Positions 1-49,263 of a DNA stretch of 49,263 nt are shown in pieces. The DNA comes from Puniceicoccaceae bacterium K14 (GTDB lineage Bacteria > Verrucomicrobiota > Verrucomicrobiia > Opitutales > Opitutaceae): contig JAKYXN010000040.1 of assembly GCA_022538095.1 (NCBI GenBank), forward strand, positions 1 to 49,263, given 5' to 3'. How positions within the stretch are numbered: the stretch's first letter is position 1; every line of letters begins with the position of its first letter. Under the pieces are notes generated by a model. It was not told where the DNA came from, did not search any database, and was given only the letters and a program-made list of their open reading frames with translations. The position numbers were made by a program, and so were the translations under genes.

Positions 1-363
1 GAAAAGCTGATACGACAACTAACATACCCATAAACCGATCTGACAACATACCTAACAATAGAGAATCTTCTGTCTACCAATACCAGTGCACCTCATACCA
101 GCGACATCGCACAAACCGAGATTAGCCTCGAGCCCTACGACCACGAATTATCAACACTGCACCAATCACTCACCTCAATCCAACCTGCCCACCTCAGCAA
201 TCTAACACAGTGATCAGGCACACTAAATCTCCCTCGCTTGGAAATTGACACCACACAACCGCCCCACTTCCCAACGATAGTCGAAAATCAAGCAACTCAA
301 AATCCTCTTACACCATTCTCCCTCAGCATCAGCGTTTGCTAAAAGCATTACGCTCGTAAGTAC
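1..363. other. Upstream region without recognisable gene
   Basis: No convincing open frame, RNA gene or hairpin was seen before the ATG of the ABC transporter at 364. The stretch is AC-rich on the + strand. It probably contains the promoter of the ABC transporter/GH39 pair, but I could not pick a well-spaced -35/-10 pair. Confidence 0.5.
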
Positions 364-9591: not shown

Positions 9592-11121
9592 ATGTTCCAA
9601 ACGGTCAAACTACTCGCTGCCATATCTCTTTTCACGGGAGCACCCATCCAAGATTCGGTATGCGCATCGGACCAAAAACCAAACATTGTCTATATCCTAG
9701 CTGACGACCTAGGATACGGAGACGTACAAATTCTAAATCCAGAGAACGGTAAAATACCCACTCCAGAAATGGATAAACTAGCTACAGATGGTATTGTGTT
9801 TACAGACGCGCACACAACTTCATCTGTTTGCACTCCGAGTCGCTATAGCATCCTCACAGGAAGGTACAATTGGCGCACGACTTTGCAAGAAGCAGTCCTC
9901 TTAGGATTTGATGACCCCATGATCAACGAAGATCGCTTCACTGTCGCTGACCTTTTAAAGAGCGAAGGCTACGCTACCGCATGCATTGGCAAATGGCACC
10001 TCGGCCTCGGGATACCTACGGTAAACGACGAGGAACTTTCAATCGAGGGATTAAGTAACGTAGACTGGAGTGGAAAAATTTCCGGGGGACCAACCAACCT
10101 CGGCTTCGACTATTTCTACGGTATTTCCGCTTCTCTCAATATGGCACCCTATATTTATATAGAGAACGATCAATTCGTGGGTGAATGCACTGTGATCAAA
10201 GGATTCAACCGCAAGGGTCCCGCTCACAAAGACTTCGAGGCAATCGACAGCCTCGATCACATCACAGAGAAAGCGGTAAGCTTTATTAAGAAACAGGATA
10301 CGGACAAACCATTCTTCTTATACCTATCACTAACCTCTCCGCATACACCTATCGTACCTACCGACGAATGGATTGGGAAAAGCGGAATCGGCCAATACGG
10401 CGACTTCGTGATGCAAACAGACGCCGTTGTCGGAGAAATTGTTCAGGCCCTCGAGGAGTCTGGGACAAGCGAAAATACGATTGTCATCCTCACAAGTGAT
10501 AATGGTTTTTCAAAGTGGGGCGGGCTTAAAGAAGTCCTCGAAGCCGGACACTTACCAAGCGCTCAGTACCGTGGATACAAATCGGACGCCTGGGAAGGTG
10601 GACATCGAGTGCCCTTTTTACTAAAATGGCCTAACGGTGTAAAAGCCGGTTCAGTAAGCGATCAACCGATTTCCCTGAGCGACCTCTTAGCAACTTGCGC
10701 CGAACTAGTTAGACTGGAAATTCCGGATACAGCAGGTGAAGATAGCGTCAGCTTTCTCCCTGCACTCTATGGAGAATCCATCGATTCATATCGTAAAGGA
10801 ATCGTACACCACTCTTTTAGTGGACACTTTGCCTACCGCAGCGACAATTGGAAACTCATACTCGCTAAGGGATCCGGTGGCTGGACATCTCCTGCCGAGA
10901 GCGAAATGTCCGAAGATGCTCCAGCAGGCCAACTTTATGACATGGAAGCCGACCCAGGAGAGACCAACAACCTTTTTCAAACGCACCCTAAAACCGTTAA
11001 AAAGCTCCTTAAACAGCTCAAGAAGGATATCAAACGAGGCCGCAGTACCGCTGGCCCAAAACTTAAGAATGATACTGACGACATAATTCTCTGGAAAAGC
11101 GGAGCGCCGGAACAACTTTAA
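9592..11121 (+). CDS. Secreted arylsulfatase A-like sulfatase
   Basis: A 509-residue sulfatase with an N-terminal signal peptide (hydrophobic core about residues 4-16, cleavage probably before ASDQKPN). The metal site is NIVYILADDLGYGD, the formylglycine motif is C-T-P-S-R from Cys80, the Lys-containing substrate motif is GKWHLG, and the second metal half-site is VILTSDNGFS. These match the classical arylsulfatase architecture, so a periplasmic or external glycan sulfate-ester hydrolase is likely. Twenty-one bases separate it from the three-domain sulfatase downstream. It follows a 199-base gap that holds a LacI-type operator candidate, so it may head its own transcript. Confidence 0.93.
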   Translation: MFQTVKLLAAISLFTGAPIQDSVCASDQKPNIVYILADDLGYGDVQILNPENGKIPTPEMDKLATDGIVFTDAHTTSSVCTPSRYSILTGRYNWRTTLQEAVLLGFDDPMINEDRFTVADLLKSEGYATACIGKWHLGLGIPTVNDEELSIEGLSNVDWSGKISGGPTNLGFDYFYGISASLNMAPYIYIENDQFVGECTVIKGFNRKGPAHKDFEAIDSLDHITEKAVSFIKKQDTDKPFFLYLSLTSPHTPIVPTDEWIGKSGIGQYGDFVMQTDAVVGEIVQALEESGTSENTIVILTSDNGFSKWGGLKEVLEAGHLPSAQYRGYKSDAWEGGHRVPFLLKWPNGVKAGSVSDQPISLSDLLATCAELVRLEIPDTAGEDSVSFLPALYGESIDSYRKGIVHHSFSGHFAYRSDNWKLILAKGSGGWTSPAESEMSEDAPAGQLYDMEADPGETNNLFQTHPKTVKKLLKQLKKDIKRGRSTAGPKLKNDTDDIILWKSGAPEQL

Positions 11122-36297: not shown

Positions 36298-36474
36298 CTC
36301 GCTCCAATAAACCGTAGATTCGCCGACAATAAGTTTTCTCACACACAGCCACTCTATTTTCCAAGCAAGCTGAATCGAAAATATCACTACACCTGTTACG
36401 GGACTCGCCTCTCTTGTACGTTCCCATGCCATGAACTCCAAGAAATAGCCCCTCAGAGTCCACACGACATTGAG

Positions 36475-37272
36475 GTGATCGAAGGAAAAACTCCAAATGA
36501 ACTCGAAAACCCCACTCGAGTCGCCAACCGATTCTCCATCGCCCCCGGACAATTACTCCTGCAAGTCGATCGCGTCGCTCGCTTTTGGGTGACCAATGGC
36601 AATAAGATAACAATCCAACGCTCACCTGATGCCTCCCATGACGACATACGCGTTTACTTATATGGCACCGCATTGGGAGCCGCCATTCTTCAGCGGGGAC
36701 AAGTGCCCCTCCACGCCACAACCGTCATCAAAGACGACAAAGCGATTGCCTTTACCGGTGCGAGCGGGGCAGGCAAGTCCACCCTAGCACATACTCTCAT
36801 AAACCGAGGATGGAAACTCGTTTGCGACGACGTTACAGTCCTAACCACTACAAACGACATCCTCCATGCTCAACCCGGATTCCCTTCCATAAAGCTCTGG
36901 CGCGACGTCCTAGAAGCTTCTCACCCAGACGTATCCAAACTAAAGGAAATCCGCGTTCAAGTTGACAAATTTCACTGGGATTCCAAGAGCAGTTTCTACG
37001 CTCAGCCTGCCCGGCTCCATGCAATAATCGGATTACTTCCCTACAACGAAGAGTCACTTAAAATAGAATCTCTCCGAGGCTTTAGAAAGTTCAAGTTCCT
37101 TACTCGAAATACCTACCGCCAGCAGATGATCGAGGGAATGGCAGACACTAGTAAGATCTTCAAAATGTGGTCAGAAACTCTAGAACAAATAAAGTTCTGG
37201 AAAATCCATCGCCCCAAATCTCCACTAAGACCTGAGCTTCTCGCAGACGCCATAGAAAAACTCATCCAATGA
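36475..37272 (+). CDS. HPr-kinase-like P-loop protein of lasso cluster (start unresolved)
   Basis: A 265-residue frame from GTG 36475 with an HPr kinase/phosphorylase-like fold: an N-terminal cap region, LHATTV, Walker A FTGASGAGKSTL (about residues 96-107) and the following NRGWKLVCDDVTVL. Relatives in lasso clusters (the PadeK/ThcoK type) phosphorylate the C-terminal Ser of the precursor. Comparison with the second kinase at 41367 shows that homology continues upstream of the GTG: YGTRLSCTFPCHELQEIAP (36397-36453) matches FGINLASEIELPELLPIDF. That upstream frame is open from 36298 but has no ATG, GTG or TTG before 36475; CTG 36370 is one candidate. The N-terminus may therefore use a rare start or be damaged. 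Confidence 0.75.
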   Translation: MIEGKTPNELENPTRVANRFSIAPGQLLLQVDRVARFWVTNGNKITIQRSPDASHDDIRVYLYGTALGAAILQRGQVPLHATTVIKDDKAIAFTGASGAGKSTLAHTLINRGWKLVCDDVTVLTTTNDILHAQPGFPSIKLWRDVLEASHPDVSKLKEIRVQVDKFHWDSKSSFYAQPARLHAIIGLLPYNEESLKIESLRGFRKFKFLTRNTYRQQMIEGMADTSKIFKMWSETLEQIKFWKIHRPKSPLRPELLADAIEKLIQ

Positions 37273-37397: not shown

Positions 37398-38750
37398 TCA
37401 TTTAAACTTAGCCAACAGAGCATCCCATAACACAGTCTGTCTCAAAGGGCGTTGAGGCGGAAACTGATGAGCAGCCAACGCACACCCAGTGTTTCCCTCA
37501 ATCAACACGGGTCCACAGGAAGTAAACACAAGGTCCCACCCTACGACTAGCAACCCCGGAAACGCAGTATGCGCTTTGCGGACGAGAGCCATCCCTTCCT
37601 CCCAGTGCGGGACCACCCGCCCAACAATAGGAGCTCCGCTCAATGGGTGTTTTCCTGTATCCAAAATATATTGATTTCTCCCAAGGATGGCGGTCAAAGC
37701 TCCAGAAGCAATATCTACCGCCACAAATACGACCACCTCCCGCCAATCCGCATCCTTAGCCTTTTCAATCGGCAACTGAGCAATAGGGGCTAAAACCTCA
37801 ACCCGTCCATCCACAAGAACAGTCAACACTCGAAAAACAACCACACCGCCATTTGAAAGATCATCCAGCTCCGGATGGTTCCTCAAACAAGGCTGCACAA
37901 GATATTCCCGAGACGCCGACAATAGACTCACTCGATCAGATAGAGCCTCAGCAGTGAGAACCGTATCCTGAAATGCCCGACTAAATCCTTCCGCTGTCCA
38001 ATCCCAGCGCTCGACTCCCTCGGAGCGCGACCCAATCCGAGGCTTGAAAATAAGCGAATCGCGATACCCTTTTAACACCAAATCGAGCGAAGAGCGGCCT
38101 TCCCCAACAATCGCTAGATTAGAAACTGCCTCGATACCGCGTTTCTGGCAAATAACAGAAAACGCCTCTTTATCGCTTAGAATTTCGGTCTCCCTGCACT
38201 CATTCGCTTTCGCCAACAAAGGTAAGACTAGCGCCTCACTCACATAGTCCCGGAATGAGTTAGAACCCGCACCCTCACCCACTAATTCGAAGCGGTGAAT
38301 ATCGATTGGGTTGAGGCGATACCGCAGCGCAATTCTCACCAAACAGAAAAAATAGCGGCCTTTCCTTCCACTACTCCAGCCACTGCGTTTTCCGAAACGG
38401 CTAGTCAAGCGCCACGCCCGACCAACTACAACCATTGGCCACAGGATAAATGATCCAACAATCGCCCCGAATGCTAAAGGGATCGAAATCTGTTTAAACA
38501 ATAGTTTAACACGTTGGTTCCACAGCCTAGCCCACAGCAGATCACTCCGCCCAAACACCGGATGACAAGGCAAACTTCTCAAATACAGCCTTATCCTGCG
38601 TGGTAGATAAATAGACATTGCCAATACACACTGTCCAATCATGAATAACTTTAAAGACAAAAGACCCAACCCACCACAAGAGTATCCAAACACCACTGCC
38701 GCGGCCTCTATCTGTAATCCACAGATAAACAACCCCATAAGGGCCATCAC
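37398..38750 (-). CDS. Membrane-associated ATP-grasp protein (sugar-transfer-associated type)
   Basis: A 450-residue protein on the minus strand (GTG 38750; ATG one codon later). Residues ~1-50 and ~85-115 are hydrophobic, implying membrane attachment. The C-terminal ~250 residues are an ATP-grasp domain of the PF14397 type: LIFKPRIGSRSEGVE, EYLVQPCLRNHPEL, VVFRVLTVLVDG, and the metal-binding end VGWDLVFTSCGPVLIEGNTG. ATP-grasp enzymes activate a carboxylate through an acyl phosphate and join it to an amine or another nucleophile. It is enclosed by lasso genes, so it may ligate something to the acidic peptide or act in an unrelated glycan pathway. Neither is proven. Confidence 0.8.
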   Translation of the reverse strand: MMALMGLFICGLQIEAAAVVFGYSCGGLGLLSLKLFMIGQCVLAMSIYLPRRIRLYLRSLPCHPVFGRSDLLWARLWNQRVKLLFKQISIPLAFGAIVGSFILWPMVVVGRAWRLTSRFGKRSGWSSGRKGRYFFCLVRIALRYRLNPIDIHRFELVGEGAGSNSFRDYVSEALVLPLLAKANECRETEILSDKEAFSVICQKRGIEAVSNLAIVGEGRSSLDLVLKGYRDSLIFKPRIGSRSEGVERWDWTAEGFSRAFQDTVLTAEALSDRVSLLSASREYLVQPCLRNHPELDDLSNGGVVVFRVLTVLVDGRVEVLAPIAQLPIEKAKDADWREVVVFVAVDIASGALTAILGRNQYILDTGKHPLSGAPIVGRVVPHWEEGMALVRKAHTAFPGLLVVGWDLVFTSCGPVLIEGNTGCALAAHQFPPQRPLRQTVLWDALLAKFK

Positions 38751-39032
38751 AAAATGGCCCTCAACATGATGACCAAAAGGAACAATAAAACCTTATCAAC
38801 CAACATTGATGGTGAAACGATTCTCACTGCACGGCGAAAGTGAAAAATATTTCAATCTCACTACTGCACGCAGCTCAATTGGGCTTCTCCTAGATAAGCA
38901 CCTCGCCTTAAAAAACTCACTTGCTCGGCTCACCTCTCCGTTCATTGGATATTATAATCTGATGCTGACTGAGTCTCAGATCTAAATCCAAATTTTGGTC
39001 AACCGGGTTAGCCTCTTTTCAATAAAACACTG

Positions 39033-40826
39033 ATGAGCATTCAATACGGCGTATATAGAACGCAACTACATGAAAAAACCATCGAAGAACGCGACTTCCT
39101 TGCCGACTCATTTGAAGAATGGAAGTGCGACTACGTCGGCAAAGCGAATATGGAGTCTGTCGCTTTTGGCTGCCGCGTCCTACGCATCTATCCCGAAAGC
39201 AAAGACGAACAGCAACCTTTAAAATGCAAGGAACACCCAATCCTTCTCACCGCTGATTGCCGTCTAGATAATCGAGAAGAATTGGCCCATGCACTTGGGG
39301 TAACCGCCACCGACCTACTAAAAACACCAGACAGCTCCCTTATTCTCGAAGCCTATCTACGCTGGGGAAGAGATTGCTTTCAGCGCCTTGATGGCGATTT
39401 CGCAATCGCCATCTGGGACCAACACTCACGCCAGCTTTTACTCGCGCGCGACGTCACCGGAGTACGACCGCTCGCCTACGCAACCTGGGACGGCGGAGCC
39501 GCATTTTCCAGCAGCATACCAGAGCTCTACCACCTCCCTTCGGTCCCCGAAGCCCTAGACGATCTTAAAATTGCGGCTATTTTCGGAAAGCATTCGACCG
39601 GGCGAGAACGCACGCCATTCAAATCCATAAAATGGGTTCACCCAGGAGCCGTAATAACAATCTGCGATAGCAATATCTCAAAAGAAATATTTGCTACCAT
39701 CAAACCAATGACCTTAAGCCCAGAAGAGCGTCGCAACCCCGCCCCTCGCCTTGGAGAGCTTCTCAAAGAAAGTGTACGCAAGCGAATCCGAGGCCAAGGC
39801 GATCTCGTATGCGAGCTCAGTGGTGGGTTCGATTCCGGCTCCATAACCGCCCTCGTAGCCAAACTCCTTGAAAAGAGCTCGCGTAATGTCAGTGCCATCT
39901 CGTGGACGCCTGACTACGACACAGTGCCTCCGTTGAAAGGTCCCGATGAACGCAACGAAATCCAATGGATAGAGCAGCACTACAGTATCCACTGCTCGTA
40001 TGTTTCCCCGTGCCTTAACAAGAACGCTTCCAATACGCTATTCGAAAGCTCTTTTCGTCAAAACGCCGCCTCCGCGATCGGCAACGCTCGCACCGTGCTC
40101 TCCGGCTCGGGAGGTGACGAATGTGCAAGCTTTTACCTACGCGGTTTTCATCCACATGCCCTCTTAGCCGACGGAATCGGTCCCGCCATCCATCGGCTAC
40201 TAGCCGACTTCCAAGAGATGCCCTTTGGATATCAAGCTCCCCTCAGACTCATTCGAGGGATCAAAGGGATGCTAAAAGCCAGGATACGAAACCAACAGTT
40301 TAAATCGGACAAAAGCTCCATAATTAATTCTCAGTTAAAAGACAAATGGCGTCAGGCTCTCGCCCAAGCTCATGGAGACGGAATCATGCGAGATATTCTA
40401 CCCTCTGGAGCACACGACTGTATGACTCGGGCATTCGCACGTGGCCATCTTGAACAACGCGCTGCTACGGAGTCCCTCGACGCCGCTCACATCGGCGTCT
40501 CAATGGCCTACCCGATGCAAGATGCCCAACTTCTCTCATTTATGATTTCTCTTCCGTCACATTATTTTAACTACAGTTCTCGACGCCGGCAGCTTTTCCG
40601 TCGCGCCCTTGATTCCCTCACCATCAAGCTCGCTCCCAACACCCGGAAACAAGAAGAAGCACTCGCAACCCGATCCCAAAAAAGACAAAGCCCCTCCTAC
40701 TCTAAGCCAGCACAAGATGAAATGAAGTCCCTCCAAAGTCGCTTCTTTAAAAGCACGCCCAATTTAATGCGGCATCAAATTGATCATCTATATGGAATTA
40801 TCGAGCATTCTGTCAAAAAAAATTAA
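39033..40826 (+). CDS. Lasso peptide macrolactam synthetase (asparagine synthetase-like, C protein)
   Basis: A 597-residue asparagine-synthetase-B homologue. The N-terminal glutamine-amidotransferase-like domain has Ser at position 2 (MSIQYG) instead of the catalytic Cys, so it cannot hydrolyse glutamine. This is normal for lasso cyclases, which use the peptide's own N-terminal amine. The synthetase domain has the PP-loop SGGFDSG at 263-269 and GSGGDE near residue 360. The enzyme adenylates the side chain of Asp or Glu in the core and closes the ring with Gly1. The precursor gene begins 91 bases downstream. Ordinary asparagine synthetase is unlikely given the missing Cys and the neighbours. 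Confidence 0.9.
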   Translation: MSIQYGVYRTQLHEKTIEERDFLADSFEEWKCDYVGKANMESVAFGCRVLRIYPESKDEQQPLKCKEHPILLTADCRLDNREELAHALGVTATDLLKTPDSSLILEAYLRWGRDCFQRLDGDFAIAIWDQHSRQLLLARDVTGVRPLAYATWDGGAAFSSSIPELYHLPSVPEALDDLKIAAIFGKHSTGRERTPFKSIKWVHPGAVITICDSNISKEIFATIKPMTLSPEERRNPAPRLGELLKESVRKRIRGQGDLVCELSGGFDSGSITALVAKLLEKSSRNVSAISWTPDYDTVPPLKGPDERNEIQWIEQHYSIHCSYVSPCLNKNASNTLFESSFRQNAASAIGNARTVLSGSGGDECASFYLRGFHPHALLADGIGPAIHRLLADFQEMPFGYQAPLRLIRGIKGMLKARIRNQQFKSDKSSIINSQLKDKWRQALAQAHGDGIMRDILPSGAHDCMTRAFARGHLEQRAATESLDAAHIGVSMAYPMQDAQLLSFMISLPSHYFNYSSRRRQLFRRALDSLTIKLAPNTRKQEEALATRSQKRQSPSYSKPAQDEMKSLQSRFFKSTPNLMRHQIDHLYGIIEHSVKKN

Positions 40827-40917
40827 ATTACTCCGCCACACACAATGTTGCTTTGCACAACAAATCGCTGTAAGTATTCATCCTATCATCTAATAAGCCT
40901 AGTTAACACCATTCAAC

Positions 40918-41079
40918 ATGAGCAAACCTACCGATAAAAAAGAAACGACAGAAGACACGAACCCACAAAAGAAAGAGTGGGAAGCTCCGACAATCGAAAA
41001 ATTTGAAGTCGCCGATGTAACGCAAGGCAAGCTCGCCGATAACACCGATGAAATCGGTGACACAATCGGTGCTTCTTAG
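40918..41079 (+). CDS. Lasso peptide precursor (A gene), 53 aa
   Basis: Read directly from the DNA: ATG 40918, TAG 41077-41079, 53 residues. The leader contains W21-E-A-P24-T-I26 and T35-Q36-G37, matching the lasso leader pattern Y-x-x-P-x-L plus Thr at the penultimate leader position. The predicted core starts at Gly37: GKLADNTDEIGDTIGAS (17 residues). Core Asp8 or Glu9 would accept the Gly1 amine for an 8- or 9-residue ring. The core ends in Ser, the residue phosphorylated by lasso-cluster HPr-kinase homologues. It has three Asp, one Asn and two Thr, and no aromatic, Arg or His. Location between the cyclase and kinase/B1 genes is the expected place. The ribosome binding site is weak. Confidence 0.85.
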   Translation: MSKPTDKKETTEDTNPQKKEWEAPTIEKFEVADVTQGKLADNTDEIGDTIGAS

Positions 41080-41366
41080 ATAGCGGTCTTACAAAAATAG
41101 ATCACAGGTAGCCTTCACCTGTTGAGGAGCAGGCAAATACCTACAAAAAAATAGACTCAAATTGAAGTCAGAACCTCAATGTCCTCACAATCTGTTCGCC
41201 GATTATACAGCATTGCGATTAACCGTTGTAGCGTTAAAATACTATTCCGAGAAAAATACGTAACAGAAGATTAGATACTTTCAATTCACAGTAAACGAAG
41301 CGAGTGAAACGAAGATTCACCATCGAATATTGAGATGAGACTAAAATTACATGCGTTTTAGAGTGT
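41080..41366. other. Gap after the lasso precursor gene
   Basis: A 287-base stretch with no supported gene. A 6-bp hairpin ACAGGT/ACCTGT (41104-41122), without a T run, lies 25 bases after the precursor stop and could protect or limit the precursor message. A possible promoter is listed separately. Small open frames here do not show a leader motif. Confidence 0.45.
41213..41240 (+). promoter_or_regulatory. Possible sigma-70-type promoter for kinase-B1-oxygenase genes
   Basis: TTGCGA (41213-41218) and TAAAAT (41235-41240) are separated by 16 bases, about 125 bases before the second kinase. It is a weak match found by eye; it would let the tailoring genes be expressed apart from the cyclase-precursor message. 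Confidence 0.25.
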
Positions 41367-42309
41367 ATGGTGAATAATTATAGGGTTTTTGGCATTAACC
41401 TCGCATCGGAGATAGAGCTTCCAGAACTCCTACCCATCGATTTCCCCCAAGCAGACGTATGCTTGAAAATAGGCGAAGTACCGAAACAATTACAAAACCC
41501 AGCCAAGATTCGCAAGTCGTTTGAAGTATCGTGTGATCAAGTGTTGATACGTGCCAAAAACGTCGGGCGATTCCTCATAGAGCGGGGCAAACGCATCACG
41601 ATAGTGCCAGAGCACGGCACCACTGAAAAAACAATCCGGCTATTTGTGCTCGGCAGCTGCCTTGGAGTTATTCTCCATCAACGTAACCTTTTCCCTATTC
41701 ACGGCAGTGTGATCGACACACCTACCGGAGCAGTTATCGTATGCGGAAAACCTGGTATTGGTAAATCAACTACTGCAGCAACGCTTGCCAAACGAGGCTA
41801 CCGTATCCTCTCCGACGATATCGCCGCCCTGAAAATCGACGGGAAATCAATTCAAGTCGAATCCAGCTATCCGCAATTAAAACTATCGGGAAATAGCCTC
41901 AATCATATAAACGAAGACCCAGAGCGACTCGAAGAGATAAGACCTGGTATCGGCAAAAGAGCATTCAAACTGCAAGCCCTGTTTAAAGCTAAGCCCAGTC
42001 AGGTAACTGCTTTGGCTTGGCTTTGGCGACAACAAAACACCTCGCCTATTTGAAGCAAAAGGCAATGAACGCTTCAATGCGATCAAGGAAAACGTTTATC
42101 GCCGCAAGTGCATTCTCCCCGAAAACAAAAGAGAGCATATTGTCCGTTGCATTCGCTTGGCCAAGCAACTACCTGTCTATCACTTGGAAAGGTCTGAAAC
42201 AAAAGATAGCATCGATGAAGTAGCTGATTTGATTGAGATGCTAGCAAAAGGTGAAATCTCAAATTCATTTCAGGCAGATTTCAGTCCTGTTTTCGAAGGA
42301 ATAACCTAA
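41367..42309 (+). pseudogene. Frameshifted HPr-kinase-like lasso tailoring kinase
   Basis: The first frame encodes 228 residues: YRVFGINLASEIELPEL, then LFPIHGSVI, Walker A CGKPGIGKSTT (126-136), and RGYRILSDDIAALKI. It stops at TGA 42051. The family's C-terminal end continues in the +1 frame: LWLGFGDNKTPRLFEAKGN then NVYRRK, and LAKQLPVYHLERSE, to TAA 42307-42309. The shift falls within 42009-42030, in the slippage-prone repeat CTTTGGCTTGGCTTTGGC, by one added or two lost bases. The gene would phosphorylate the precursor's C-terminal Ser if intact. As read it loses about 85 C-terminal residues and is probably inactive, unless the shift is a sequencing error. The second kinase at 36475 may replace it. 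Confidence 0.85.
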
Positions 42310-42319
42310 AAACACTACT

Positions 42320-42616
42320 ATGGATTCAAACAAACTAAACCAAGATACCGTACTTCGGCAGAGCGAAAACCAAGTCGGCTGCAACCTAGACGAAGAGATG
42401 GTCTTACTCAATATCAACACTGGAGGCTACTACAATTTCAACGAAATAGCCTCCGCCGTCTGGGGGAGTATTAAGGAACCCAAGTCGTTAGGTGCCTTGA
42501 TTTCTGAACTGCTTGAAACATACGAAGTGGAAAAGGAACTCTGCCAACGAGACGTTAAAGCTTTTTTATCCAAACTCATTGCAGACGACCTCGTCGAGGC
42601 ATCCAACGAAGGCTGA
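42320..42616 (+). CDS. PqqD-like lasso leader-recognition protein (B1)
   Basis: A 98-residue PqqD-family protein. Typical features: residues ~15-35 form the beta-wing (VGCNLDEEMVLLNINTGGYY), then NFNEIASAVWGSI, and a helical C-terminus with LISELLETYEV and VKAFLSKLIADDLVE. In lasso systems this RiPP recognition element binds the leader and delivers the precursor to the B2 protease and the cyclase. It starts 10 bases after the end of the kinase reading and is likely on the same transcript. B1 and B2 are separate genes here, and are encoded 4 kb apart on opposite strands. Confidence 0.9.
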   Translation: MDSNKLNQDTVLRQSENQVGCNLDEEMVLLNINTGGYYNFNEIASAVWGSIKEPKSLGALISELLETYEVEKELCQRDVKAFLSKLIADDLVEASNEG

Positions 42617-42881
42617 CTTTGAGTGCTGTTCAAGGCTTCTGAACACGCCATGTATTTTGTCCGACTCAATTGCGATCAAGGCCAAGCCACTCGTAAGATA
42701 CATTTTTGAAAATTGGCACCATGCGAATCCCATTACAAGTCGATTGGCAAACGCATCAAAGAAGCACGCCTTTCGATGATAAATAGAAAAGCAATGAACG
42801 CACAAAAAGCTCATTTCGAGAGTTAGAGAATTTCATTGGCATATGTTAGGGATTTACAAATACAATTGAAAGGAAATCAAA
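42617..42881. other. Gap between B1 and the oxygenase gene
   Basis: A 265-base stretch with no supported gene. In many lasso clusters B2 follows B1 directly; here I translated all frames and found no Cys-His-Asp transglutaminase remnant. The oxygenase ribosome binding site AAAGGA lies just upstream of ATG 42882. Confidence 0.4.
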
Positions 42882-43922
42882 ATGAATAGCCAAAATTTGA
42901 CTAGCGAATTGAAAGCCGAAGAAAAAAAGGCCACTCATACCGAGCAAGAGCTAATTGAACGTTACTCCAACCCAGTCGTTGCGAATCAACTGCTCGCCGC
43001 TTTGGAAAAACGAATCGAAAGCAATCCCACTAATGTCCTTTTATTATCGCAAAAAGCGATGATTCTACGACGCATCGCGAAATTGGAGCAGGCTCTTTTG
43101 GTCTACAAACAAATCTTAGCTCTTGAGCCACACAACGAATATGCCCATCGCTCCGCCGCAGTTCTCTCAGGCTCGCCACTTCCCGTGTCCAAAGAAAAAG
43201 GTTCTTTCCCAGCTCCGTTTGTCGCTATCCCTAATTTTTTGCCGGATTCGAAGTTGTCTGCACTTTATCAAGCGACACTTGAGAACGAAAAATATTTTAA
43301 GCCTTCTGGAGTCGGAGCCACCGAGCCTCACTATGATCCAGACAAGCGACAAAGTTTCGTTTGGGGGGGTATCGGCGAATGGAGGCCCTTCATGAAAGGC
43401 CTTCTCCGGGAACGCTTGCCGCAATTGTGCGAATCACTCTGCATCGATACCTTCGAACCCGGTTCGGTAGAAGTGAAAATTACCAACTACCTAAACGGCG
43501 GCTTTTTCATTACCCATGCTGACAATAGTATTAGCAAAGGAAAGACAGGGCGAGCCATCAGCTACCTGCTCTACTATCACTCTCAGCCCAAAGCTTTCCA
43601 AGGAGGAGACCTTTTCCTTTTTGATTCTGACTTGAGCAATGAACGATATACAAATGCGAACTTCACTCGCATTCGCTGCCAAAACAATACCTTAGTCGCA
43701 TTCAATAGCCCCTATTTTCATGCAGTACAGCCGGTTCGGCTAGAAAGTGAACGATTCGACCAAGGACGCATGGCATTGGGTGGTCATATAAACTATATGG
43801 ATACTGAAGACTCTACTAAAAAAACCCTTAGACAATCGAGACAAAGCAGATGCTTGGACCGCTCAACTGTAAAGAGTGCAACATTCGAGAAGATCCAAAA
43901 AAATTACAATAAACGAGCGTAA
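42882..43922 (+). CDS. TPR plus 2OG-Fe(II) oxygenase, candidate lasso hydroxylase
   Basis: A 346-residue protein with a good AAAGGA ribosome binding site. Residues ~30-95 are TPR-like helices (LLALEKRIESNPTNVLLLSQ...). The rest resembles prolyl-4-hydroxylase-type double-stranded beta-helix enzymes. Iron ligands are His212 and Asp214 in ITHADN and His280 in YFHAVQPV; Arg296 in QGRMALGGHI could bind the 2-oxoglutarate C5 carboxylate. GGDLFLFD lies between them, as in the family. Related enzymes hydroxylate Asp, Asn, Pro or Lys; an iron/2OG enzyme makes beta-hydroxy-Asp in the lasso peptide canucin A. Here core Asp5, Asp8, Asp12 or Asn6 are possible targets. The 3' end overlaps the convergent sulfotransferase gene by 19 bases. 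Confidence 0.82.
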   Translation: MNSQNLTSELKAEEKKATHTEQELIERYSNPVVANQLLAALEKRIESNPTNVLLLSQKAMILRRIAKLEQALLVYKQILALEPHNEYAHRSAAVLSGSPLPVSKEKGSFPAPFVAIPNFLPDSKLSALYQATLENEKYFKPSGVGATEPHYDPDKRQSFVWGGIGEWRPFMKGLLRERLPQLCESLCIDTFEPGSVEVKITNYLNGGFFITHADNSISKGKTGRAISYLLYYHSQPKAFQGGDLFLFDSDLSNERYTNANFTRIRCQNNTLVAFNSPYFHAVQPVRLESERFDQGRMALGGHINYMDTEDSTKKTLRQSRQSRCLDRSTVKSATFEKIQKNYNKRA

Positions 43923-44851
43923 GCCAATTGAGCTGATTCTAGGATCATTTGTGGCTCATAACCACATCGATCAATTAGGTTGGGCTTTTTTTCCTTCATC
44001 GAAATCGGCACTGGATCCTTCGCCGAAGACTTCGCGTAAAATTGTTTCTGGGATTTCATCTTCTTCAAAATCCCTTCAGAACCTTTCGCTTCGAACTGCT
44101 CTAGTATTTGCTCCAGAGAGTTATCCATATTTTCATAATCAATAAGCATAGCCGGTCGTACTGATTTGAACTCTAGAGCCTTTTGAGCATTGTGGCTGTA
44201 TATTCTAACTGCTTCTTCACACAATGCACTTTCGCGATTTCCCTCCATTTGAATCTCATTGAGGAGCCAATTGGGAGGCTTTCGTAGGAGTGACTCTATT
44301 ACCGCAATGGGTTCTCTAAAAAGCAATACAGCTGAAGCAGTATCAAAGGCCTCACTGAGAATTTCCCAGTATTCTATCTGCCACGACGTCAGTTTGAAGA
44401 TTACTCGCTTCCCGCTTGCCGCCGCCCAGTCTTGAAATGCAGCAGCAACTTTCCGAAGTGCATTCATTTTTTGCTCCGAAGGCAGGCTTCGGCTTTTCAG
44501 AATGCTGCTGAATATTCCAAGCTCGCCAATCACGATAAAATCGGGATGGCATTTGAGCATTTGGCAAAGGAGAGTCGAGCCACAACGGCTGCAGTGATAG
44601 ATGAGGCCAATAGCTTTTTCCTCAGCAGGTTCTTGAGAAGCTGGAAGGGAAAAAAGATCTTCAATCGGCGTAATTGCACAGACGCGCTTGTTAAGCGGCA
44701 ACGCTTCAATGCTATCTCGAAAAAACCCGTATCTAAAATCCAAAGCGACTGCATCAACCCAATGAACGATTAATTTGCCATTGATATTGATAAGAGCGTA
44801 CGGAAGCTTCGCATTTTGGAAAACGGCATTCTCTTTTCGGTCTTCTAGCAT
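43904..44851 (-). CDS. Sulfotransferase-like P-loop protein in lasso operon
   Basis: A 315-residue protein on the minus strand. The 5'-phosphosulfate loop is HCSRCGSTLLCQMLKCHPD, followed by helices and a 3'-phosphate-type region near LLFREPIAVIESLLRKPP, as in PAPS-dependent sulfotransferases. It begins 21 bases after the end of the ABC transporter D gene, which itself overlaps B2, so B2, D and this gene form one operon. Sulfation of the peptide on Thr7, Thr13 or Ser17, or of an exported partner, is therefore plausible. Whether it uses PAPS or acts on another group cannot be told. It is listed as a candidate tailoring enzyme. Confidence 0.78.
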   Translation of the reverse strand: MLEDRKENAVFQNAKLPYALININGKLIVHWVDAVALDFRYGFFRDSIEALPLNKRVCAITPIEDLFSLPASQEPAEEKAIGLIYHCSRCGSTLLCQMLKCHPDFIVIGELGIFSSILKSRSLPSEQKMNALRKVAAAFQDWAAASGKRVIFKLTSWQIEYWEILSEAFDTASAVLLFREPIAVIESLLRKPPNWLLNEIQMEGNRESALCEEAVRIYSHNAQKALEFKSVRPAMLIDYENMDNSLEQILEQFEAKGSEGILKKMKSQKQFYAKSSAKDPVPISMKEKKPNLIDRCGYEPQMILESAQLAYARLL

Positions 44852-44872: not shown

Positions 44873-46609
44873 TTACTCAGGAGCAACTATCGTAGGCTGA
44901 TAGTCCTGTAAGTGTATACGTTGATCAACATCAGCAATAGTTGCCTCTCGGTGGGCTATCACGACGATAGTAGTTTGCCCTCGCATACGCTTCAACGCTT
45001 CTTGAATTTTTCCCTCATTTTCTGCGTCTAAAGCGCTTGTCGCCTCATCAAGAATGAGTAGCTGAGCCTCTGCCAACAAAGCTCGGGCAAGAGCTAACCT
45101 TTGCCGCTCACCTCCGGACAAACGTATTCCATTGTCCCCCACGACCGTGTCAAGCCCTTCAGGCAAACAAGCTACGAAATCCTCTGCGGCGGCCAGACGA
45201 AGAACTTCCCAAAGATCCTCATCCACAATTCTTCTCGAAACGACCCAACTTAAATTCGCCCTCACTGTATCATGAAAAAGATAAGCTTCTTGGGTTACAT
45301 AAGCCACGCTCTTGCGCCAAGAGAGGAGAAATGAATCCTCCAAAAGTTGCTCATCGCAGTAAATGGCTCCGGAAATTGGCTCTAAGAGACCTGCTAGCAG
45401 ATCCGCTAAAGTGGTCTTGCCAACGCCTGAAGGGCCTACAAGGGCAGTCGTTTGATTTTTTCGGATACATGCGGAGAGCCCCTCAAAGACAGGCTCTTCC
45501 TTTCCTGGATAGCGATAGGAAATCTGGCTCAAATTAATCGCTTGCTTGAGTTCGAGCGGCGGCAAATCAGTCTCCTCGCGTGCTTCTCTGGCCGCGGCGC
45601 ACTCACTTAGCATCCTCTCCACATCTTGAAAAGCCGGCGTCTTGTGAAGAAGAAGCTGATAGCTTCTCTGCATTCCCGAAAATTGCGGCAAAAGGCGGGA
45701 GAAAATGATCAGCAAAAGAAACAAGGTAGCTATGGGAATCTTGAATACGATTTGAGAAAAATAAAAAAACACGCTGAAAGCCGCAGCAGCTCCCACTACG
45801 TAAATCAATTGAGTGACTGCATTCATGCGAACAACCCGTATACTTTCATTTTCCAGGTTTTCGCTGGTCTGCCTCAAGCGTTCTGCGCAACGGCTTTCGC
45901 CCGAGTAACTCTTGATCATTTTCAAGCTTCCTAGCTGCTCGGTCAACATTTGAAAAACGGTCTTGTAGTTAGCTAAATGAGTACGCCCAGAACCGTAGAT
46001 GGACCGATTCAATGGCAGTAGCAGGCCTAACAGCAAACCACCAAAGCCAATAGCCAAAAGAGTCATCTTCCACGACATAAGAAATGCGAGAACCAACATC
46101 AAGGAGGCCAAAACTGACTGGCTCAGCAAGGAAAGCATCTGATTCGACGCTTGCCCTATCGACTGAACCTGGCCCGTAAGACAATGACTGAAGTCCGACA
46201 TTTTCCTTTGAACTATAAATTCCCATCGAGCAGCCAGCAAGGAGCGGTAAAGCCTGTCACGTAAATCACCAACATAGGCAAATTGCGTTTCCGCTGAAAG
46301 TGTCGCCAAACGATAGCGAACCGAAGCGATCATCCCGACGATAATGACATAGCTTATCAGTACGCCCGACAAAGTGGGCTCAACACCAATGAAATAAAAT
46401 ACCTCTTGGGCAAAGCCTGCGACCCTCGAATCCAGCGACCCGCCCAAATCGAAACCAACCAAATCAAGAAGAGGAACGATGAAAAGTAAGCCCACTCCCA
46501 TGGTCACTCCTTGGATCACCATCAGAAAAAAAAGAAGTATCTGTCGTCTAGGAGAAAAACGATAAAACGAAACGAAAGCAGCTCCCAACACTCTCAAATT
46601 TGCAGTCAT
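44873..46609 (-). CDS. Lasso peptide ABC exporter (D protein)
   Basis: A 578-residue type I ABC exporter: six membrane helices over the first ~310 residues, then the ATPase with Walker A GPSGVGKTTL, signature LSGGERQRLALARAL and Walker B LLILDEATSALD. There is no N-terminal C39 peptidase domain, so it exports mature peptide and leaves leader removal to B2. Its ATG overlaps the B2 TGA (ATGA at 46606-46609), giving translational coupling. In lasso systems the exporter also provides self-immunity. Assignment is firm from family and context. Confidence 0.93.
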   Translation of the reverse strand: MTANLRVLGAAFVSFYRFSPRRQILLFFLMVIQGVTMGVGLLFIVPLLDLVGFDLGGSLDSRVAGFAQEVFYFIGVEPTLSGVLISYVIIVGMIASVRYRLATLSAETQFAYVGDLRDRLYRSLLAARWEFIVQRKMSDFSHCLTGQVQSIGQASNQMLSLLSQSVLASLMLVLAFLMSWKMTLLAIGFGGLLLGLLLPLNRSIYGSGRTHLANYKTVFQMLTEQLGSLKMIKSYSGESRCAERLRQTSENLENESIRVVRMNAVTQLIYVVGAAAAFSVFFYFSQIVFKIPIATLFLLLIIFSRLLPQFSGMQRSYQLLLHKTPAFQDVERMLSECAAAREAREETDLPPLELKQAINLSQISYRYPGKEEPVFEGLSACIRKNQTTALVGPSGVGKTTLADLLAGLLEPISGAIYCDEQLLEDSFLLSWRKSVAYVTQEAYLFHDTVRANLSWVVSRRIVDEDLWEVLRLAAAEDFVACLPEGLDTVVGDNGIRLSGGERQRLALARALLAEAQLLILDEATSALDAENEGKIQEALKRMRGQTTIVVIAHREATIADVDQRIHLQDYQPTIVAPE

Positions 46610-47118
46610 ATATTCTGAGTCGGCAAGACGTTTGTGTTACGAGAGCGATTCAGAGCAACCCCATAGGCAGCGATCACCGTAAAGGCCCGATGTCCCTCAC
46701 GCCCGCTAACAACCAAATCTCCAACCTTAACCCACGCATGCGCCTTCAATGGTCCATCCGAGTTCACGACACCCAAATAAACGATTCCAGGAATACCATA
46801 AAACCGCAGGCCTACTGCAACCGCCACAGCCTGTACTAAGCACTTCGATTCCCAAGGCGTGTAGCGAGCCACCAAAGAACAAATACGCCCAAGTCGCCTC
46901 GCAAGGTCTTGACTAGTTTCCGAAATCGGCACAATCGAGGAAGAATCCGTATCAGTCGGCCTCCCGAGAACAGACGCAATCGCTCGAAACGGCAGTATTA
47001 GGATAGCGAGACGAACGAATCCGCTTAGAGGATACGCCAAACAAAACCAGACCTTTTCGCGAGCAGGCAAACGCAGTGCTGTTTTTGCCTTTCCTATGAA
47101 TCCAAAAAACCCTTGCAC
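46606..47118 (-). CDS. Lasso leader peptidase B2 (transglutaminase-like)
   Basis: A 170-residue protein from GTG 47118 (a stop lies two codons upstream in frame). It has the catalytic pattern of lasso B2 cysteine proteases: Cys93 in ESKCLVQAVAVAVGL, His127 in LKAHAWVKV and Asp134 in VGDLVVSG, plus an N-terminal segment of hydrophobic helix. It removes the leader after Gln36 of the precursor, guided by B1, and exposes Gly1 for ring closure. It overlaps the D gene by four bases. The intergenic space of 96 bases to the divergent nucleotidyltransferase gene must hold both promoters. Confidence 0.9.
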   Translation of the reverse strand: MQGFFGFIGKAKTALRLPAREKVWFCLAYPLSGFVRLAILILPFRAIASVLGRPTDTDSSSIVPISETSQDLARRLGRICSLVARYTPWESKCLVQAVAVAVGLRFYGIPGIVYLGVVNSDGPLKAHAWVKVGDLVVSGREGHRAFTVIAAYGVALNRSRNTNVLPTQNI

Positions 47119-47214: not shown

Positions 47215-48381
47215 TTGAAAACCGAAAGAAAGCTACTACTTGCTTGCCTGCAATTTGAACTAGGCTCCCGCTCCTTGGAAGATCTTAGCAACGCTCTCCA
47301 GGCGAAGGATCTCGACTCGAAACAATTCGCCAAGTTCCTTCTACGTCACCGTCTCGTCCAACAGGTCTATGCGACGCTTAAAAAGGCACCTATAGACACC
47401 CATTCAATTGAAAACGCTCTCAAGCAGCTCAATCTCCAAATTACGCTTAAACAACTCGCTAACACCGCTCAACTCACGAAAATAGTCGCAGCCTTCGAAG
47501 AACAGAGCATCTCATTTATCTGTCTAAAAGGCTCCGCTCTAGGCGTTCTTCTATATGGAGCCGCTGAGAAACGACAATCCAACGATATCGATATTCTCGT
47601 GCAAGAAAGTGATTTGCGAGCAGCAGAATCCGTCCTAGCGCATTTGGGTTTCAAATACGACGAATTCAGCTCCGATTCACCAACAAAAGACAAATTTGAA
47701 ATTCACAAAAACCACACACACCATCTTCATTTTTCAAAGGGTGACTTAGTCGTAGAAGTGCATTGGAAAACCTCATCGCATAACTATCTGTATCCAAAAC
47801 CCTTCGAAGAGCTTTACCAGAAACGCACTCATATCCCAATCGCCAACCAAAACGTCCCCTTTCTTTCTACAGAAGACCTCATCGCTTATCTGCATATTCA
47901 CGGGATCGCTCACTGCTGGAATCGCATGAAACTAATCTATGAAGTCGCTCTCCTTCGGCAAAAAGACCCTCAAGTATTCGATACCCTAACGAACCGACCA
48001 GAACCATCTCCCCTTCGCCAAGCATTCAAAACTTACCAAGCTCTATCACACCAGCTTTTTGACTACGGGCCAAGTCCTCAAAAATCCTTAAAAACCTCGA
48101 TCCTGACTTCGCTCGCATGCTCTCAAATGCTAGGCGACAACGAGCTCCTAGATAGCCTTCCCAATACCCTAGGCCGCTCCGCATCCATATTTTTGACAAT
48201 ACCCGATATCCCAAACCGCATTCGTTATACCAATCAACTGCTTTCTTGGACTCCCCTTTATCATAAACTTCCTCTCCCCAAATATTTCCATTTTGTCTAT
48301 CCCCTCATAAGCCCAGCCCTTTGGTTCTGTCGCGCTATCAGAAGAGTGTTCACACCCGAGAAGAGAAAAGTGAAACAATAG
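47215..48381 (+). CDS. Nucleotidyltransferase-fold protein of lasso clusters
   Basis: A 388-residue protein from TTG 47215 of the PF14907 type. The polymerase-beta-like core shows ISFICLKGSALGVLLYGAAEKRQSNDIDILV with the two Asp of the metal site (DID), then VEVHWK. Such genes accompany many lasso clusters, as well as other RiPP clusters and capsule loci, and their role is unproven. Transfer of a nucleotide to the peptide or to a tailoring protein is one proposal. It is divergent from B2-D-sulfotransferase. Its C-terminus is hydrophobic and basic, perhaps peripheral to the membrane. The family call is good; function is unknown. Confidence 0.82.
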   Translation: MKTERKLLLACLQFELGSRSLEDLSNALQAKDLDSKQFAKFLLRHRLVQQVYATLKKAPIDTHSIENALKQLNLQITLKQLANTAQLTKIVAAFEEQSISFICLKGSALGVLLYGAAEKRQSNDIDILVQESDLRAAESVLAHLGFKYDEFSSDSPTKDKFEIHKNHTHHLHFSKGDLVVEVHWKTSSHNYLYPKPFEELYQKRTHIPIANQNVPFLSTEDLIAYLHIHGIAHCWNRMKLIYEVALLRQKDPQVFDTLTNRPEPSPLRQAFKTYQALSHQLFDYGPSPQKSLKTSILTSLACSQMLGDNELLDSLPNTLGRSASIFLTIPDIPNRIRYTNQLLSWTPLYHKLPLPKYFHFVYPLISPALWFCRAIRRVFTPEKRKVKQ

Positions 48382-48642: not shown

Positions 48643-49087
48643 TTATTCTAAAGCGCCTCGCATGCGATTGAAATCCGCCACGCTTCGATTAAAACTCGCT
48701 ACCGCTGAAATCTCACGCAACTCCGCTGTATTCAAATCATTTTGCAGGCGTAGTACAACGAAGGTCGAACTTGTCCCCGCTGTCAGTTTCTTTTCTTCTG
48801 CGCTCAAGCTTTGTTCAGCCAATTCACGCGCATACCGAGTCGCTTCCACTCGCTCGAAATTTGTCTGCATCGCCTCGAAGGAAGTATGAAATTCTAACTG
48901 TATTGCCAGCCGAATACGTTCTATATCCACAAGCGCAAGCTCCTCTCTCTTCTCGGAAATCGTTCGCTGAGCGCGAGCCCTACGATTCAAGAGCGGAAAG
49001 CTAAACGCCGCTCCTAAAGAATAACTCTCCTCTCCTTTCGAAAACACATCAGACAAACTGTTGCCCACAGACTCCCCAGAACCGCTA
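48643..49087 (-). pseudogene. Truncated TolC-family outer membrane efflux gene (C-terminal fragment)
   Basis: The minus frame encodes about 140 residues of a TolC/CusC-like outer membrane factor: SYSLGAAFSFPLLNRRARAQ, a heptad-rich helix (LAIQLEFHTSFEAMQTNFERVE), AEEKKLTAGTSS and FNRSVADFNRMRGALE. This is the second half of the family, and the N-terminal half is missing. Upstream the frame reads GSGESVGNSL, then passes into unrelated sequence of the IS630 element and stops at 49134-49132. The nominal GTG 49068 is an accident. The break point is inferred at about 49075-49110. It is probably not functional unless the rest lies beyond the insertion. Confidence 0.75.
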
Positions 49088-49263
49088 GAGCAACTTTCTT
49101 TAAAATAGTCGCATTTTAATAGCGCTTTTTCTCAAAAAGCAGTTAGGGTGCCTCTTCCATGAAACCGCTAAGCATGGATATTCGAAAAAGAGCTGTGGCC
49201 TTGCGTCAAGAAGGCTACAGCGCAGCTGAAGTATCACAACGATTGATGATCAGTAAACGCAGC
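49086..49263 (+). mobile_element. Left end of an IS630-family insertion sequence (partial)
   Basis: The transposase start at 49159 and the interruption of the TolC frame point to an IS630-type element entering from here. Family members insert at TA; the TA at 49086-49087 (CTAGAG) is my best guess for the junction. A perfect 7-bp hairpin, GCTTTTT/AAAAAGC with loop CTC (49124-49140), lies between the end and the transposase start. The right end is outside the window, so terminal repeats could not be compared. Confidence 0.6.
49159..49263 (+). CDS. IS630-family transposase, N-terminal 35 residues
   Basis: The frame opens with MKPLSMDIRKRAVALRQEG and continues YSAAEVSQRLMISKRS to the window edge. 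This is the N-terminal helix-turn-helix of IS630/Tc1-mariner transposases, which binds the terminal repeats. ATG 49174 is an alternative start. The DDE catalytic domain would follow outside the window. The family call is moderate because only the DNA-binding end is visible. Confidence 0.65.
   Translation, partial: MKPLSMDIRKRAVALRQEGYSAAEVSQRLMISKRS

Follow-up and report, generated by a model that had tools for sequence, protein, structure and literature searches.

A putative lasso-peptide pathway with a small, acidic and aromatic-free core in Puniceicoccaceae bacterium K14

The contig JAKYXN010000040.1 of Puniceicoccaceae bacterium K14 (49,263 nucleotides, analysed over its whole length and referred to as the window) holds a frame of 53 codons, here called A, situated between a lasso-type cyclase and a B1/PqqD protein. 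This raises the question of whether A is a lasso-peptide precursor gene and, if so, which residue closes the ring, what keeps the thread in place and how the chain is modified. A literature search, made up mostly of titles and passages, gave no description of a Verrucomicrobiota lasso precursor of this type. The present analysis indicates that A almost certainly encodes a lasso-peptide precursor and that its pathway very probably yields one more representative of a familiar natural-product type, the chief oddity being the lack of bulky thread-holding residues.

The likely precursor frame and its candidate processing genes

The frame starts with ATG and its translation, MSKPTDKKETTEDTNPQKKEWEAPTIEKFEVADVTQGKLADNTDEIGDTIGAS, ends in a core of 17 residues, GKLADNTDEIGDTIGAS, of which four are acidic, one is basic and none is aromatic. 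With Gly1 of the core as reference, the leader marks are Trp(-16), Pro(-13), Ile(-11) and Thr(-2), and both the marks W-x-x-P-x-I and T-Q-G and the core boundaries read in an earlier note on this DNA were recovered in the translated frame. The arrangement is that of a precursor adjoining a cyclase, with an aromatic-xx-Pro-x-Leu/Ile motif and Thr(-2) in which Trp replaces Tyr, and the core has Gly1 first and two acids, Asp8 and Glu9, within the lasso range of positions 7–9. In a published lasso leader, as given in passages of PMC10368454, the corresponding residues are Tyr(-17), Pro(-14) and Leu(-12), so that the marks of A each lie one residue nearer the core, in agreement with the shortened spacing noted before. 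The cyclised core has a computed monoisotopic mass of 1657.7795 Da ([M+H]+ 1658.7868), reproducing the earlier sum of about 1657.78 Da. When the precursor was searched against the Pfam and NCBIfam profiles no family was found up to E 1; lasso precursors this short are frequently without a family match. The product is predicted to be a lasso peptide without cysteines, of class II type, and its threading is something we infer.

Table 1. Features in and around the putative lasso cluster (positions in the window)
Feature	Coordinates	Strand	Remarks
Second HPr-kinase-like gene, K1	36370..37272	+	Listed ORF 36475-37272 (GTG start); PF07475 30.6 bits, below cut-off 33.3
ATP-grasp protein	37398..38750	-	PF14397 2.2e-34; cluster membership doubtful
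Putative lasso cyclase, C	39033..40826	+	597 aa; N-terminus MSIQ, without Cys2; SGGFDS loop present
Putative lasso precursor gene, A	40918..41079	+	53 aa; leader encoded by 40918-41025 and core by 41026-41076; stop 41077-41079
HPr-kinase-like gene, K2	41367..42309	+	PF07475 34.7 bits (cut-off 33.3) in first part; probable C-terminal Ser kinase
B1, PqqD-type leader-binding protein	42320..42616	+	98 aa; NF033536
2-Oxoglutarate/Fe(II) oxygenase with N-terminal TPR-like part	42882..43922	+	PF13640 6.6e-12
Sulfotransferase-like protein	43904..44851	-	315 aa; PF13469 31.9 bits (cut-off 27)
ABC exporter, D	44873..46609	-	578 aa; PF00664 and PF00005
B2, leader protease	46606..47118	-	170 aa; NF033537, PF13471
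NTP_transf_5 nucleotidyltransferase-like protein	47215..48381	+	388 aa; PF14907 2.2e-43

Among the processing genes (Table 1) the assignment is most direct for B2, which scored 94.2 bits against a cut-off of 33 with the profile of the transglutaminase-fold protease and whose Cys93 and His127 are conserved in an alignment with the B2 of another lasso cluster of this genome, described below. B1 passed its lasso profile narrowly (82.0 bits, cut-off 80) and has PDB relatives in 9x90 and TbiB1 (5v1u). For C the family NF033535 was the top match (221.5 bits, E 2.2e-65) but the score stayed below the curated cut-off of 525, and the label lasso cyclase therefore rests on a tree and on the neighbouring genes. 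In the tree, built from 48 asparagine-synthase-like proteins, a 100/100 branch splits 23 proteins with a lasso label assigned from their neighbouring genes, C among them, from 25 others. C itself sits on a long branch and its position among the lasso-side cyclases is not settled by the tree; the rows nearest to it include Verrucomicrobiae DG1235 and two genomes of the window's own family. Its identity to other cyclases is at most 25% over the alignment in the tree set and at most 35% over local stretches within the order.

Based on these assignments, B1 would bind the W-x-x-P-x-I leader and an HPr-kinase-like enzyme would phosphorylate Ser17 ahead of leader removal, a step proposed from the known mechanism and from a bias towards C-terminal Ser described below, and the oxygenase or sulfotransferase may likewise act on the linear precursor. 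B2 would then cleave between Gln(-1) and Gly1, the site being suggested by Thr(-2), C would close the ring around the tail by linking the Gly1 amine to the side chain of Glu9, the favoured acid, or of Asp8, and the finished product would leave through the ABC exporter D. We regard this route, taken as a whole, as very likely.

At the nucleotide level the RNA of the core-coding stretch 41036–41069, one of three stretches chosen by eye, forms a compact hairpin (z -3.0, with 1 of 200 shuffles as good), and a scan for promoters and terminators over 38700–43000 gave about the same number of sites as in shuffles.

Related loci and the ring residue

Relatives' DNA was taken as 43 stretches, together with loci from similarity searches, the window's own genome being the sole representative of its genus in the sample. 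Matches to the B2 profile were found in 10 of 273 genomes of the order (9 over the cut-off) and in 15 of 387 genomes of the phylum (13 over the cut-off), two samples that overlap. Loci with a PqqD match together with a B2 or a cyclase were classed as lasso-type, giving a set of 22 with the window included, some of them cut by contig ends. From these loci 14 motif-bearing candidate precursors were collected, nine with Trp and five with Tyr in the leader. Outside this count stand precursors at L033, L038, L044 and L047 (no PqqD match with the queries used; the first two end in Ser and the last two do not), at L064 and L041 (dropped by an overlap filter, both ending in Ser), at L029 of DG1235 (motif without I/L/V, ending in Ser) and at L046 and L080 (more than 2 kb from the lasso genes, both ending in Ser), while nine of the 22 loci yielded none, for reasons beyond those just named.

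A strict pattern, [YW]xxPx[ILV]-7..9-TxG followed by 10–30 residues in ATG ORFs of 30–90 aa, was devised with A already known and returned, besides A, seven matches at six loci across 897,004 bases from elsewhere, a total that includes some 11 kb twice. All six loci were classed as lasso-type judging by their neighbouring genes; at L033 and L038 no B1 was detected with the queries used, and the classification follows from cyclase and kinase in L033 and from cyclase, kinase and B2 matches in L038. The eight strict hits, which are not independent since L038 and L041 look closely related and L123 is counted twice, fall into three with the standard Tyr(-17) and Gly at P+6 and five with shortened spacing and without that Gly (four Trp, one Tyr).

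The closest parallel to A comes from the same genome, where contig C340 carries a second lasso cluster (L042) with genes for an HprK, a sulfotransferase, a PqqD, a 55-aa precursor, a cyclase, an aspartyl/asparaginyl beta-hydroxylase-like protein (PF05118), a glycosyltransferase-sulfotransferase fusion (GT8) and a B2. The leader of this precursor shows Trp(-16), Pro(-13) and Thr(-2), with Glu replacing the usual Gly at P+6, and the 17-residue core that follows, GGSNVTGFESGAFYRTS, has Gly11, Ser17 and, as its sole acid, Glu9; in each of these features, the sole acid apart, the precursor is like A. The B2 proteins of the two clusters are 58.6% identical whereas the cyclases and PqqD proteins share 23–26%; the tail of the L042 core has Phe and Tyr, of which A has neither, and L042 differs further in its oxygenase and in carrying the GT8-sulfotransferase fusion. 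The earlier note had called the leader of A unusual and was correct about the Trp, the Glu and the short spacing, but these traits are no one-off, as L042 shares all of them, so that they recur within the genome, and Trp outnumbers Tyr among the 14 candidates. When A was used as query against the 387 genomes of the phylum, matches with E values of 1 or below came from 21 genomes and were weak almost without exception; besides L042, the leader of which was retrieved weakly at E 0.08, no lasso locus was recognised among the matches listed; a closer look at one further match, G049 C115 (L090, L127), revealed no lasso gene there.

Two further observations concern single loci. In L029 of DG1235 a 54-aa ORF (10869–11033, minus strand) adjoins the PqqD gene, has Trp-xx-Pro and ends in Ser; its boundaries are uncertain, and one reading gives it Ile(-2) and Glu9. 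L121 and L123 each have two kinase-like genes, an oxygenase related to that of the window (26% and 29%, respectively) and two candidate precursors with Trp leaders.

For the ring the earlier note had offered Asp8 and Glu9 as two open options, and both are chemically possible, but they are not equal when the precursors of relatives are compared, as the note had proposed. Among the eight strict hits an acid is found by eye at position 9 in seven and at position 8 in two, the window being one of these, and all four strict hits with a Trp leader have Glu9, including the L042 precursor, which has no other acid in its core, and one from L123 that also has Asp7. The comparison thus favours Glu9 over Asp8, and closure at Glu9 is the probable outcome predicted from these sequences. 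The same lasso pathway closing at Asp8, with an eight-residue ring and Glu9 as the first loop residue, is unlikely given this conservation of position 9, even though Asp8 is present in the core of A, the precursor of L033 carries Glu8 with a non-acidic residue at position 9, and two tentative precursors from the same order (L046, 5319–5426; L080, 9054–9158), both more than 2 kb from lasso genes, can be read with Asp8.

The C-terminal serine, its candidate kinases and possible further tailoring

The cluster combines an HPr-kinase-like gene with Ser at the C-terminus of the core, as in the paeninodin type, and one of its two kinase genes has a broken frame. In K2 the frame is broken at about 42,000–42,020 and the C-terminal part runs on in another frame to 42309. 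The first part, up to about 42,000, holds a P-loop and an Asp-Asp motif and is 39% identical to the DG1235 kinase over 217 columns, and the out-of-frame part is still 32% identical to the same kinase over 37 columns (E 9e-6 against a set of three kinases), indicating that the break is recent or an assembly error. K1 is 31% identical to the DG1235 kinase over 295 columns, and the similarity reaches upstream of its GTG start; a possible CTG start lies at or near 36370, and when read from there K1 looks whole.

Ser forms the C-terminus in all eight strict hits, A included. It is also found in 11 of the 14 looser candidates compared with 13 of 130 motif-free small ORFs from the same neighbourhoods (p 3e-9 in a binomial test that disregards relatedness), the candidates not ending in Ser being those of L037 and L043 and one of the two at L121. 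Thirteen of the 14 lie in loci with a detected kinase and ten of these thirteen end in Ser, while L120 has the Ser without a detected kinase and the lasso-like precursors of L044 and L047, outside the counted set, lack it with kinases present. The bias fits the presence of HPr-kinase-like genes at 18 of the 22 lasso-type loci; the corresponding matches for the nucleotidyltransferase, sulfotransferase and oxygenase are 12, 7 and 5, all four counts having been made with window and L042 proteins as queries, so that a match at those two was bound to occur. Among kinase-bearing lasso-type loci both the Trp leader of shortened spacing and the C-terminal Ser are recurrent traits.

According to passages of PMC9266682 and PMC8498205, the kinases PadeK, ThcoK, SyanK and PsmK phosphorylate the C-terminal Ser, on linear precursors, and PsmN appears to put a hexose onto this residue. 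A counter-case is BsfK, for which a passage of PMC10368454 gives phosphorylation at Ser3 instead. The earlier note had listed a +79.966 form without a residue, and Ser17 is now the likely site. We lean towards phosphorylation of Ser17 with moderate confidence, because one kinase is frame-broken and the second looks whole.

The genes for a sulfotransferase, a 2OG-oxygenase and a nucleotidyltransferase point to additional tailoring of the product. The oxygenase has an HxD motif at 212–214 and a candidate distal His at 280, and a PDB search with it gave only weak matches (prolyl 4-hydroxylase, E 0.0057, and TPR proteins). CanE is described in passages of PMC9266682 and PMC8498205 as beta-hydroxylating an Asp of a linear lasso precursor, and hydroxylation of the present product on an Asp or Asn may be considered, with a chance somewhat short of even. 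Sulfation is a more tentative prediction, as is, to the same degree, the addition of a hexose on the phosphate. Relatives of the sulfotransferase occur at the lasso-type loci L045 and L064, and lasso clusters with a kinase and a nucleotidyltransferase, and some with a sulfotransferase gene, are already known from passages of PMC8498205 and PMC4289311. The ATP-grasp protein was left out of the proposed route since no relative was found at any of the 21 other lasso-type loci. As a separate observation, the kinase, sulfotransferase and PqqD genes are consecutive in L029, L042, L079 and L116 and form a recurring module.

When compared with known systems as described in passages of PMC8498205 and PMC9266682, the window shares lasso genes, an HPr-kinase-like gene and a C-terminal Ser with paeninodin (PadeK), ThcoK, SyanK and pseudomycoidin (PsmK/PsmN), and with the pseudomycoidin cluster also a nucleotidyltransferase-like gene. 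It is set apart from kinase-associated lasso peptides by the Trp leader with spacing one residue shorter than in the leader of PMC10368454, by the very acidic 17-residue core without aromatics and the added oxygenase and sulfotransferase, and by its origin in the Verrucomicrobiota. The bsf cluster of Bradymonas sediminis (BsfA, BsfK, BsfB1, BsfN) resembles the window in its kinase, its nucleotidyltransferase and the split B1/B2, but BsfA differs from A in its Ile(-2), in the standard Tyr(-17) of its leader, in its C-terminal Asp and in being phosphorylated at Ser3 (passages of PMC10368454). An Fe/2OG oxygenase is likewise found in the canucin A cluster, where CanE acts on the lasso precursor; its target is the C-terminal Asp, whereas the window has a C-terminal Ser and an oxygenase with a TPR-like part (passages of PMC9266682). 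To the known lasso pathways the window adds one whose core is unusually small and acidic and free of aromatics, with as many as four activities that are candidates for tailoring.

Possible retention of the thread and alternative readings

The tail of A, IGDTIGAS, contains no F, W, Y, H, R or K; by eye, the tails of the other seven strict hits each contain at least one of F, W, Y, H or R. Lasso lock residues are mostly bulky aromatics according to a passage of PMC13352647, and since the tail of A is without such a plug the product could be a branched, unthreaded macrolactam. We consider this rather unlikely, as Ile14 or a modified Ser17 could hold the thread in a tight ring and the cyclase C groups with cyclases of other lasso-type loci. 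For the preferred, threaded product an enzymatic cap has also been considered, in which a (poly)phosphate, hexose-phosphate or sulfate on Ser17 would act as the stopper with no bulky side chain, and to this we give a slim chance. The locus makes it testable whether a chain-end modification can take the place of a bulky plug in holding a lasso thread.

Decay of the cluster, with A intact and the pathway no longer yielding a product, is suggested by the frame break in K2 but appears improbable considering the open frames of A, C, B1, B2, D, the oxygenase, sulfotransferase and nucleotidyltransferase-like genes and the catalytic part of K1, and considering that the resemblance of the out-of-frame part of K2 to its relative agrees with a recent break or a mistake in the assembly. 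That A is a chance ORF and no precursor, a reading with which the missing family match would agree, is scarcely tenable, as the strict pattern matches once in the window, at A, against a mean of 0.03 in 100 dinucleotide-preserving shuffles (3 of 100 with a match), A is placed between C and B1 and a paralogue with an identical leader layout is found in the same genome.

Other frames were considered as well. A reverse-strand frame of 54 aa overlying A (40899–41063) was rejected, nothing being found in its favour, and six more frames that a looser screen gave at 34–49 kb were set aside as overlapping larger genes or being alternative readings of them; in a filtered screen of the cluster surroundings A was the sole remaining precursor candidate.

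As the window is an entire contig the cluster may extend elsewhere, and a frame for an outer-membrane efflux protein (TolC-like) is found near the contig end at 48643–49263. At the other side, between 5088 and 29081, the scanned genes include three sulfatases and one heparinase-like gene, as in the breakdown of sulfated polysaccharides.
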